From IMG/VR virus record IMGVR_UViG_3300037042_001101, positions 1 through 30,461 of that record: a DNA stretch of 30,461 bases; one strand, 5' to 3'. Shown piece after piece: positions 7,093-10,276 of the stretch. The DNA is from a virus. The position numbers and the translations under genes are program-made. How positions within the stretch are numbered: the first letter of the stretch is position 1; every line of letters starts with the position of its first letter. The notes under the pieces are model-generated. The model was not told the origin of the DNA and made no database searches. It saw only the letters and a program-made list of their open reading frames with translations.

Positions 7093-7135
7093 TTTGTTAA
7101 TTATTTTTTTATATAAATATTTAATAATAAATTTG
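7093..7135 (+). promoter_or_regulatory. Promoter P3 of the base-modification operon
   Basis: TTTGTTAA is at 7093-7100, the upstream box TTTATAT at 7108-7114 and the -7 box TAAATTTG at 7128-7135. The spacing matches P1 and P2 within 1 nt. The leader TTTAAAAACAAATAA follows, directly before ATG 7159. This places the dioxygenase and glycosyltransferase genes in an early-type transcription unit. Confidence 0.7.
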
Positions 7136-7158: not shown

Positions 7159-7377
7159 ATGGAATTCGAAAATGTAGGTTACTCAAAGGATTATTATACT
7201 TTAGAAAAAAAATACATAGGTTCATTGGTTTGCGATAAAGACAGGGAGGTTTATGGTTATTTGGGTAGAAATAAAGAAATATTATTACAGGATATAATAC
7301 TTAGAAAAAAAACAATAAAAAAGGGTACAGAATTATTAACAGAGATTTTTCCTTTAAATGGAAGAATTATAAAATAA
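7159..7377 (+). CDS. Small hypothetical protein, first gene of the modification operon
   Basis: This 72-residue basic protein is beta-rich in the middle (KYIGSLVCDKDREVYGYLG) and has a lysine-rich region, RKKTIKKG. It resembles a small SH3- or OB-type barrel by strand pattern only. It follows promoter P3 with the standard leader. Position next to the dioxygenase cassette suggests co-regulation. No family is recognised. Confidence 0.65.
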   Translation: MEFENVGYSKDYYTLEKKYIGSLVCDKDREVYGYLGRNKEILLQDIILRKKTIKKGTELLTEIFPLNGRIIK

Positions 7378-7382
7378 AAATT

Positions 7383-7601
7383 ATGAAATTATTTGAGGAT
7401 GATTGGGGTGTAGATACCTCACCAATTGACAACACAGAAATCACAACTACAATGTTATATTTTAGTTCAGATGAATTAAAATTATTTAAAAAATTATGTA
7501 AAAAGGGGATTGAATATGAATTTAAAGATGAATATCAATCAAAGGGAAATTTAAGCGATTTATTATTAATTATTTTAAATGAAAAATATGGAAACTTATA
7601 G
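7383..7601 (+). CDS. Small protein, possible ribbon-helix-helix type
   Basis: A 72-residue protein with an acidic N-terminus, then one beta-like strand (ITTTMLYFS) followed by two helices (SDELKLFKKLCKKG and SDLLLIILNEKYG). Strand-helix-helix is the order of ribbon-helix-helix DNA-binding proteins, so it could be a local regulator of the operon, although the second helix lacks a clear signature. It overlaps the dioxygenase start by 23 nt. Confidence 0.65.
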   Translation: MKLFEDDWGVDTSPIDNTEITTTMLYFSSDELKLFKKLCKKGIEYEFKDEYQSKGNLSDLLLIILNEKYGNL

Positions 7602-8463
7602 ATTAAAAAAACAATTAACGGACAAACAAACCGAAAAATTAAAAACTAAATTTTTAACTGAAAAGAATTATGATTTATTAATTACCGAAGATGCCGATGG
7701 CTACGATATAAATGGTAACTTATTATTTCGATTTAGAAAAAATGCAATACCATTTGAAACATTAAAATTAGGTGTTGATTCATTTAAAAAATCTATAGCA
7801 GCCGGTGGAGGTCGTGGAATTGCTGCAGGTGGATATATTAATAAAGTAAAAAAAGATGGTACAATATCAAATTTTGATTCATCACCAATAGTTGAATCGG
7901 GAAATGTTGGTTTTATGGATGCAAGACCAGGATCGGGTGTTGTGGCAACGTGTAGAAAAACTGCATTTGCAAGGCAGTACTTTAATGAATTTAAACAGGG
8001 AATTCCATTTGTAAAATTTATTGATGATAAATACAGGGAACTTTGTCCAACACATTACGCAAAACAAAAAGCAATAGCCGATGGTACAAATAGAAACTAT
8101 GTTATAGATGATACTTCATTTACCACAGTAACTGTTAATAAAAACTTTAGGACCGCAGTACACAAAGACGCAGGTGATTTTCCCGATGGTTTTGGAAATT
8201 TAATTGCCTATCGTGAGGGTGATTGGACCGGTGGATATTTTTGTTTACCACAATATAAAGTAGCAATAGATTTACAAAATACAGATATACTTTTTGTTGA
8301 TGTTCACCAATGGCACGGAAACACAGAATTTTTAAACACACAACCGGATTGGTTAAGAATTAGTTTTGTTTTATATTATCGTGAATATATGTACAAATGT
8401 GATCAACCGGCAAAGGAATTAGAAAAAATAAAAATCAATCAAACAGGATACTTAAAATTATAA
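7579..8463 (+). CDS. TET/JBP-type 2-oxoglutarate/Fe(II) DNA-base dioxygenase
   Basis: This 294-residue protein carries the marks of the TET/JBP branch of 2OG/Fe(II) dioxygenases, which oxidise the methyl group of 5-methylcytosine or thymine in DNA. A Gly/Ala-rich RGIAAGG (residues 79-85) and CRKTAFARQ (125-133) are typical of the phage and JBP members. VNKNFRTAVHKDAGD (186-200) gives the Fe ligands His195 and Asp197. GGYFCLPQYKVAIDL (218-232) is followed by DVHQWHGNT (241-249) with the third ligand, His246 or less likely His243. Arg260 is placed to bind 2-oxoglutarate. An alternative start is ATG 7588, three residues later. It is followed 2 nt on by a TAGT-like glycosyltransferase, the expected second enzyme. 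The target base cannot be decided from sequence. Confidence 0.85.
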   Translation: MKNMETYRLKKQLTDKQTEKLKTKFLTEKNYDLLITEDADGYDINGNLLFRFRKNAIPFETLKLGVDSFKKSIAAGGGRGIAAGGYINKVKKDGTISNFDSSPIVESGNVGFMDARPGSGVVATCRKTAFARQYFNEFKQGIPFVKFIDDKYRELCPTHYAKQKAIADGTNRNYVIDDTSFTTVTVNKNFRTAVHKDAGDFPDGFGNLIAYREGDWTGGYFCLPQYKVAIDLQNTDILFVDVHQWHGNTEFLNTQPDWLRISFVLYYREYMYKCDQPAKELEKIKINQTGYLKL

Positions 8464-8465
8464 TT

Positions 8466-9287
8466 ATGGAATATGTGATAGCAATTCCCACTTATAAACG
8501 TGGTGAAACATTAAAAAATAAAACATTAAAAATGTTGGAAAATGAAAATATAAATAAAGATAATGTTTATATATTTTTCGCAAATGAAAATGAATTAAAG
8601 GAATATAATTTAATTGGATATAAAAATTTAATTGTTGGTGAATTAGGTTTAATAAATCAAAGAAATTTTATTGTAAATTATTTTAATCAAAATCAAAAAA
8701 TATTGTGGTTAGATGATGATTTAAGTTGTATCAAAACTGTAGAAAAAGATATAAATAAATTAGGTAAAAAATTTGATAATAAATTTAAAGATGCAACAAT
8801 AAATGAATTCGCAATCTTAGGATTCAATGAATTAGAAAAAAATCAATGCAGTTTATTTGGACTTTATCCCGTAAATAATGATGCCTTTTTAACCATTGGA
8901 AACGTTACAACGGATTTAAAATACATTATCGGATGCTGTTACGGAACTATAAACAATAGGGAATTATTTACCTTTGATGTTAATGAATCAAATGGCGGTG
9001 CAAAAGAGGATTTTTTACGCACATTGATGGTTTATGAAAAAGAAAAAAAGGTAGTAAGATTAAATTTCTTTACAGCAATTACAAATTATTATGGTGAAAA
9101 AGGTGGTTTACAAAGTTTAGAACAAGAATATGGAAATAGAAAGGAACGTGATTTTATTTCAATGAAATATATTTGTGATAAATATAAAGGATTAGCATTT
9201 GAAAATATAAATAAAAAAGGTTATCCGGAAATAAAATTAAAGGATACATTAATAAATAAAATTGAAAATCAAATAACATTATTTTAA
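8466..9287 (+). CDS. TET-associated glycosyltransferase (TAGT-like)
   Basis: This 273-residue protein looks like a GT-A-fold glycosyltransferase of the TAGT group. That group was predicted by comparative genomics to add sugars to hydroxymethylated bases made by TET/JBP enzymes. The nucleotide-sugar strand IAIPTYKR lies at residues 5-12. GLINQRNFIVNYF (61-73) is a typical family motif, and LWLDDDLSC (80-88) gives the metal-binding acidic cluster Asp83-85. A later NESNGGAKEDFLRTL supplies a likely catalytic acidic site, as in other GT-A enzymes. It directly follows the dioxygenase, and the pair is probably co-translated. The sugar donor is unknown. It could in principle modify a protein or cell wall, but the neighbour makes DNA the best candidate. 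Confidence 0.8.
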   Translation: MEYVIAIPTYKRGETLKNKTLKMLENENINKDNVYIFFANENELKEYNLIGYKNLIVGELGLINQRNFIVNYFNQNQKILWLDDDLSCIKTVEKDINKLGKKFDNKFKDATINEFAILGFNELEKNQCSLFGLYPVNNDAFLTIGNVTTDLKYIIGCCYGTINNRELFTFDVNESNGGAKEDFLRTLMVYEKEKKVVRLNFFTAITNYYGEKGGLQSLEQEYGNRKERDFISMKYICDKYKGLAFENINKKGYPEIKLKDTLINKIENQITLF

Positions 9288-9752
9288 ATGAAAAATCAAA
9301 CAAACTTATTTTTTGATGATAAGGTTAGTCAGTACTTTACAGGCAAAATGGATTTATACCTTGGTGATATTGATTTTAAATTTGCGGATCAATTTGTGAA
9401 CATTACTGCGGAAATTAAAAGTGTTTCAGAAAATCATATATTTAAAGGAAAAAAACTAACATTTAACCAGGCTCGTGAATATGCCTGCGATGTTAATTTA
9501 AAGGATGATTTAAACCGAATTAAAAAGAATTATTTATTTGAATATTATAAATATGTAAATGAACCATATATTATTGTAATACCATTTAAAAATATAACCG
9601 GTGATGAATTAATTGCCATTGATTTTTTAGATATGAAAAATGCAAAAATGCTATACATTAATAAAGATAATCAATTTAATCAATGGTTATCCGGGAATAG
9701 ATACGTAGGTGTTACACCAAAAAAAGAACTATTAAGTATAAACTACAAATAA
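9288..9752 (+). CDS. Unknown protein of the base-modification operon
   Basis: This 154-residue protein begins right after the glycosyltransferase stop with no gap. It is alpha/beta with DIDFKFADQFVNITAEIKS at residues 27-45: an Asp followed by a strand ending in Glu-Ile-Lys, which loosely resembles a PD-(D/E)XK nuclease core. A strand EPYIIVIPFK and a C-terminal SGNRYVGVTPKKEL follow. It may be a third component of the modification system or a nuclease that spares modified DNA, but the motif is weak. I do not recognise a family. Confidence 0.65.
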   Translation: MKNQTNLFFDDKVSQYFTGKMDLYLGDIDFKFADQFVNITAEIKSVSENHIFKGKKLTFNQAREYACDVNLKDDLNRIKKNYLFEYYKYVNEPYIIVIPFKNITGDELIAIDFLDMKNAKMLYINKDNQFNQWLSGNRYVGVTPKKELLSINYK

Positions 9753-9754
9753 AA

Positions 9755-10276
9755 ATGGAAATTACACAAAGATTAAAAGAAATAATTAAGCAGGAAACGA
9801 ATACAGATATAGATATTAGAACACGTAAAAGGCAAACTGTTGAAATGCGATCGCTATATTGTAATGTATTAAAACAATTAAACCCAAATAAAACACTTCA
9901 ATCAATAGGCGATACATTGGATTTAAATCACGCTACAGTAATACACGCATTAAACAATTACAAGGTTTACGAACAATACAATCCGGAATTAAAAAAGTTT
10001 AGAACAACAATATTATCTTACTTTACAATGGATGATTCAGAATTAAAAGAACTATTAGAAACTGAAAAGTTAAAGCACCAATTAATGGAATTGAAAATAG
10101 AAAATGATAGTTTAAAAATACAATTAAAACAACAAAAAGAAACACCAACACACGAACACACAATAATAGATGATTTAAATATATTAATGAATAACACATT
10201 GGGCACAACACAACACACAATAATAAAAGAACGCTTAGAGGCATTTTATAAAATGAATAACAATATAAAACTATGA
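9755..10276 (+). CDS. DnaA-domain-IV-like DNA-binding protein with coiled coil
   Basis: This 173-residue protein has at residues 22-72 a close resemblance to the DNA-binding domain IV of DnaA: RKRQTVEMRSLYCNVLK, then LQSIGDTLDLNHATVIHALNNY, where the (D/N)HATVxHA helix is the family signature that reads DnaA boxes. No ATPase domain is present. Residues 95-130 are a charged coiled coil for dimerisation. A plausible role is replication initiator or host-replication interference. The gene contains two copies of ACACACAATAATA at 10156-10225 around an AT-rich spacer, so the phage origin may lie inside it, as in lambda O. Its end overlaps the next start. Confidence 0.75.
   Translation: MEITQRLKEIIKQETNTDIDIRTRKRQTVEMRSLYCNVLKQLNPNKTLQSIGDTLDLNHATVIHALNNYKVYEQYNPELKKFRTTILSYFTMDDSELKELLETEKLKHQLMELKIENDSLKIQLKQQKETPTHEHTIIDDLNILMNNTLGTTQHTIIKERLEAFYKMNNNIKL
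10156..10225 (+). repeat. Iteron-like direct repeats inside the DnaA-like gene
   Basis: ACACACAATAATA occurs at 10156-10168 and 10213-10225, each embedded in a longer AC-rich stretch. The 44 nt between them are AT-rich. In protein terms the repeats encode HTII twice. The arrangement resembles initiator-binding repeats at a phage origin, but only two copies exist. Confidence 0.45.

Follow-up and report, generated by a model that had tools for sequence, protein, structure and literature searches.

Among the closest described systems are phage TET systems, reportedly predicted by Iyer et al. in 2013. The phage TETs tested by Burke et al. in 2021 are said to act on 5-methylcytosine (5mC) and to co-occur with C5-methyltransferases. 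Kinases and ADDT/aGPT-like enzymes are, as far as is known, components of 5hmdU pathways. For the TET-associated glycosyltransferase (TAGT) of phage T6, the reported activity is the addition of a second glucose to glucosylated 5hmC, and the modeled structure is a GT-A fold (PMC13216743).

The window analyzed here is an entire IMG/VR record of 30,461 bases, which has no completeness estimate and is therefore possibly a fragment. An earlier note had read part of it as an oxidize-then-glycosylate cassette, and the core of that reading is supported, with a Tet_JBP match for the oxygenase and a placement of the glycosyltransferase (GT) in the TAGT group through its homologues. The sequence features on which it was based were found in place, both in the ORF positions and in the alignments of TETs (A1) and GTs (A2). 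As a whole, the locus probably represents a post-replicative DNA hypermodification cassette that combines TET oxidation, TAGT glycosylation, clamp tethering, and a protective coat.

The dioxygenase and its relatives

The ORF at positions 7579 to 8463 (plus strand, as for the other parts of the cassette) encodes a TET/JBP-type Fe(II)/2OG dioxygenase, as judged from its match to Pfam PF12851 (Tet_JBP) at an E value of 2.3e-24 (85.9 bits; gathering cutoff, 34.9), the search that had been proposed as a check. In most relatives, the start methionine lies 9 nt downstream of the ORF start, which makes position 7588 the likely true start. The metal ligands H195 and D197 of the HKD motif (8161 to 8169), the third metal ligand H246 within DVHQWHGNT (8314 to 8316), and the 2OG-binding R260 (8356 to 8358), which also aligns with TET2, are invariant among 39 aligned TETs, some of which are only 19% identical. 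The TET-family profile finds human TET2 in the PDB (5e-6), and HKDAGD of the window aligns onto HRDLHN of TET2, the final residue of which is the base-contacting Asn1387 (PMC7854593). The enzyme is predicted to oxidize a 5-methylpyrimidine in phage DNA.

TET homologues with 57 to 93% identity occur in 52 viral contigs, which places the recurrence of the block far beyond chance. Recurrences of the TET-GT pair come from viral contigs, from the cultured Nonlabens phage P12024L, and from unrelated phages. TET and TAGT-type genes are adjacent in Synechococcus phage S-CBWM1, Arthrobacter phage Prairie (below the curated cutoffs for both Pfam scores), mycobacteriophage PRodriguez (below the cutoff for the TET score), and a Spirulina contig.

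Gene 2 of Mycobacterium phage PRodriguez (L058, 813 to 1691) is annotated as a DpdA-like tRNA-guanine transglycosylase. It matches Tet_JBP at 1.4e-4, below the curated cutoff, and the TET-family profile at 1e-60, the protein itself being part of that profile's alignment, and it adjoins TAGT, PIG-L, and kinase genes. The DpdA-like label is probably a misannotation. Another arrangement is seen in a gammaproteobacterial MAG, where a 1,006-amino-acid protein (L076, 5605 to 8625) combines a TET domain with a kinase-like C-terminal region, with an ADDT-like gene nearby.

Upstream of the dioxygenase, overlapping its start, lies a 72-amino-acid ORF (7383 to 7601). It is conserved in this position at 48 of the 52 related loci, and P12024L has it as well. 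The AlphaFold model of this protein (pLDDT 82) consists of an extended segment followed by two helices; the model retrieved no PDB match at an E value of ≤0.001, and the Pfam search gave no convincing match. The long first helix does not support a ribbon-helix-helix reading. The promoter P3, behind which the cassette had been placed, could not be established, as sigma-70-like matches in the window do not exceed those in shuffled sequences (22 versus 28.5). The sequence TAAATTTG at positions 7128 to 7135, upstream of the first ATG (7159), fits the Bacteroidetes −7 consensus, but this motif is only slightly overrepresented in the window (28, versus 8 to 26 in shuffles).

The glycosyltransferase and the exchange of decorators

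The GT ORF (8466 to 9287) begins 2 nt past the TET stop codon, as the earlier note had stated. Searched alone, the protein gives a weak GT8 match in Pfam (E value of 0.011) and no match to PF20691 ("TET-Associated Glycosyltransferase") at an E value of ≤1, and it is therefore filed under TAGT by homology only. It is 35 to 37% identical over its full length to the GTs of loci L011 and L012, and the L011 protein matches PF20691 at 2.7e-14 (54.0 bits; cutoff, 27.5); the L001 protein and gp27 of P12024L also score above the curated cutoff. The expected TAGT affiliation is thus borne out through homologues, while the window GT by itself falls below any TAGT threshold; homology supports its inclusion in the TAGT group, though not as a direct profile member. 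The protein corresponds to PHROG 25200 and is of the GT-A type. In the alignment of very divergent GTs (A2), R12 of the IPTYKR motif and D84 and D85 of the acidic DDD motif (D83 to D85, 8712 to 8720) are invariant. A search of the viral contigs with the window GT alone found nothing, and alignment A2 is too divergent for a scan of the collection.

Close relatives keep a constant oxidase but exchange the decorator gene behind it. The slot behind TET can be filled by a TAGT, by a lone P-loop kinase, or by a 365-amino-acid enzyme together with a kinase. The 365-amino-acid family hits ADDT (amino acid:DNA transferase; PF18724), with an E value of 1.3e-21 for its L036 member. The annotation of one relative reads alpha-glutamyl/putrescinyl thymine pyrophosphorylase clade 2. 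Loci L016 and L017 have TETs that are 99.7% identical, but one locus carries a GT whereas the other carries ADDT plus kinase, and L003 and L004 (TETs 98.6% identical) carry a GT versus a kinase. In L026 and L049, the TETs are 100% identical and the first GTs 23% identical; between the window and L001, the values are 93% for TET and 28% for GT. Overall, the GTs are <35% identical in 49 of the 114 pairs whose TETs are at least 85% identical. A similar exchange affects gene 3 of mycobacteriophages, which encodes a TAGT in PRodriguez, whereas others have an ADDT-like gene at this position.

Further arrangements were seen behind TET. In locus L026 (8810 to 10322), a single TET is followed by a tandem of two dissimilar TAGT-type genes, and in Pelagibacter phage HTVC112P (L059, 7899 to 8597), the gene after TET encodes an FkbM methyltransferase and not a GT. 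In four loci (L004, L008, L009, and L010), the slot is taken by a P-loop kinase, with GT and ADDT both missing; their end product could therefore be a phosphorylated base.

A 151-amino-acid protein (c1) lies between TET and the decorator in 40 of the 52 loci. Its family carries the motif GENxQGxEIKND (L003, 3277 to 3732, and 39 other TET loci) and has no Pfam or PDB match. Scanning for c1 gave 75 loci, of which 64 were newly added, and TET is present in 61 of these 64; in the remaining three, the distance from the c1 start to the end of the locus is no more than approximately 100 bases. No c1 is present in the window, L011, or L012, where a 154-amino-acid gene follows the GT instead. In the window, this third gene (9288 to 9752) abuts the GT ORF with no gap, so that its position is as described before; its homologues behind the GTs of L011 and L012 are 51 to 54% identical. 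The part of the earlier claim that made it a member of the cassette is unproven, since a 77% identical homologue occurs in a 24.6-kb contig (L065) in which no TET was detected. The structure model of the 154-amino-acid protein was discarded (pLDDT 40). A PD-(D/E)XK nuclease reading of the 154- and 151-amino-acid proteins finds only motif-like EIK sequences; neither Pfam, nor the PDB, nor a comparison of the two profiles with each other gave a match. Downstream of the cassette, at 9755 to 10276, lies a gene for a DnaA C-terminal-like protein with BLAST relatives in 34 related loci, mostly in the same place.

A shared C-terminal motif

The window GT ends in QITLF (residues 269 to 273, 9270 to 9284), in which Q269, L272, and F273 are kept in at least 90% of the members of alignment A2. 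This tail fits the bacterial clamp-binding consensus QL[S/D]LF (cited in PMC3716654), a peptide that mostly stands at the C terminus. The QxxLF pattern was noticed post hoc and then counted in 592 nonredundant proteins of these loci, where it stands at the C terminus of 37 of the 50 decorators, c1 proteins, and DNA methyltransferases and of none of the 542 others; 0.41 was expected from shuffling. By family, it is present in 23 of 25 GTs, all 4 kinases, 5 of 9 c1 proteins, 4 of 8 DNA methyltransferases, and 1 of 4 ADDTs, and it is absent from the TETs (0/8; that of the window ends in TGYLKL) and from the remaining proteins (0/534). The enrichment (Fisher, 4e-48) treats related proteins as independent and is better stated as several nonhomologous families sharing a QxxLF tail. 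Of 93 N6/N4 methyltransferases collected separately from viral contigs (L078 to L157), 40 end in QxxLF. Many others of that set end in QxxMF, QxxIF, or QLTLL. The 154-amino-acid protein bears a similar sequence near its N terminus, QTNLF (9297 to 9311), a possible clamp motif of which Q4, L7, and F8 are invariant in four homologues.

These tails suggest that QITLF of the window GT is a handle for the host beta sliding clamp and that modification is coupled to replication. The T4 alpha-glucosyltransferase (alpha-GT) copurifies with the T4 clamp gp45, and its share of glucosylation is credited to expression and not mainly to clamp binding (PMC13216743).

An alternative in which the tails are a DNA-level word, such as a recombination microhomology for swapping, or some other protein tag is unlikely. 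A common 3′ end could indeed aid recombination where decorators are swapped so frequently. Yet the two middle residues vary, the stop codons vary, and the codons for Q, L, and F match background usage, which points to a signal at the protein level; copies without exact QxxLF keep clamp-like variants (QYNLL, QLTLL, QQVLDL, QxxMF, and QxxIF), and the 154-amino-acid protein has its motif at the other terminus. The same tail bears on a second alternative, namely, that a generic oxygenase here accompanies a surface-glycan or lipopolysaccharide GT, with no DNA modification. Such a pair would suit a GT whose direct profile match is a weak one to GT8 and not to TAGT, but it is very improbable given a Tet_JBP score far above the cutoff, homologous GTs that are TAGTs, the exchange of the GT with ADDT and kinase genes in one slot, and a C-terminal motif common to the GT and DNA methyltransferases.

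For the hypermodification cassette, the enzyme families, catalytic residues, gene linkage, decorator swapping, and common C-terminal motif are supported by the sequence. The reactions, the sugar, the clamp binding, and a protective role, including against restriction, we infer as follows. The dioxygenase would hydroxylate a pyrimidine of the phage DNA at its 5-methyl group, and the GT would move a sugar from a host sugar nucleotide onto the new hydroxymethyl group. Binding of QITLF to the host beta sliding clamp would keep the GT at the replication fork, so that new DNA would be coated during its synthesis. The coat may block host nucleases, and exchange of the decorator gene would alter the decoration met by the host.

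The candidate substrate base and comparison with known systems

Thymine is given about an even chance of being the substrate, with a slight lean over 5mC, whose chance is put somewhat below even. A C5-methylase (PF00145) was found neither in the window nor in P12024L, whose record is titled a complete genome; the search also came up empty for 42 of the 48 other records, many of which are fragments. Thymine, as the sole 5-methylpyrimidine that does not need a methylase, is therefore a serious candidate. An N6/N4-methylated base was rejected as a general TET substrate, PF01555 being found only in P12024L among 17 records. A nucleotide-level route to the hydroxymethyl base was likewise rejected, with PF00303 found only in Cr30 among 26 records and in none of the window-group records searched.

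The same cassette acting on 5mC, supplied by the host or by an unrecognized phage C5-methyltransferase and leading to glycosyl-5hmC, is a reading that falls a little short of an even chance. Phage TETs reportedly act on 5mC (Burke 2021), and C5-methyltransferases do occur in 6 of the 50 records, two of which have the gene only a short distance (a few genes) behind TET. The pocket of the window TET resembles that of 5mC enzymes in D200 and R268, positions matched by their spacing from the HxD and 2OG-arginine residues. D200 (8176 to 8178) occupies the base-contact position of TET-type enzymes, that of NgTET1 Asp234, CMD1 Asp350, and TET2 Asn1387, which contact N4 of 5mC (PMC7854593). D200, Y266, and R268 correspond to D350, F416, and R418 of CMD1, which bind 5mC in an enzyme inactive on T (PMC7854593). 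However, the same D+3/R+8 residues are present in TETs of the group with and without a C5-methyltransferase gene. PF00145 gave no match in the window, in P12024L, S-CBWM1, Prairie, Cr30, and HTVC112P (phage records titled complete), or in G007, G020, G027, G032, and G037 (28 to 32 kb). The alternatives in the slot, kinase and ADDT/aGPT-like genes, also argue against 5mC, being, as far as is known, enzymes of 5hmdU pathways.

More tentative still is a base-J-like phage system, in which thymine would be oxidized in place to 5-hydroxymethyluracil and glycosylated by clamp-riding enzymes, with decorators exchanged among relatives. If so, sugar, phosphate, or amino-acid-type decorations would be set on one common intermediate, and decorator exchange would be akin to serotype switching of the DNA itself.

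The cultured Nonlabens phage P12024L offers a test case for phage TET action on thymine. One conserved oxidase feeding interchangeable decorators would be a natural panel for DNA-modification writing tools and for defenses that read DNA modifications. The tails suggest, moreover, that several unrelated phage DNA-modifying families are replication coupled through the host clamp. The decorator swap and the QxxLF tails of TET phages were not found described in the literature searched.

The pairing of TET with TAGT is itself already known; this group is set apart as a variant by the slot in which decorators are swapped, by the clamp-like tails, and by a methylase being usually absent. The window shares with the phage TET systems of Iyer (2013) and Burke (2021) a TET/JBP dioxygenase clustered with a TAGT-type GT in a phage genome. 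The phage TETs of Burke reportedly have C5-methyltransferases, whereas most records here are without. With base J, made by kinetoplastid JBP1/2 and a glucosyltransferase, the cassette would share TET/JBP oxidation of a base inside DNA followed by glycosylation, but the base J host is a eukaryote, and thymine is here only a candidate substrate for a phage enzyme. T4/T6 glucosylation (alpha-GT, beta-GT, and the T6 TAGT) likewise puts sugar on hydroxymethylpyrimidine DNA, and the T6 enzyme belongs to PF20691, the family of the window-GT homologues. T4, however, makes its hydroxymethyl base at the level of nucleotides, whereas the window gave no PF00303 match; T4 alpha-GT binds the phage's own clamp gp45 (PMC13216743), whereas the putative partner here is the clamp of the host. 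Finally, sister phages carry in the GT slot the P-loop kinase and ADDT (PF18724) that recall the 5hmdU hypermodification of ViI, SP10, and phiW-14 (kinase plus aGPT/ADDT); the window has the GT version, and TET would be the source of the hydroxymethyl base in those phages.
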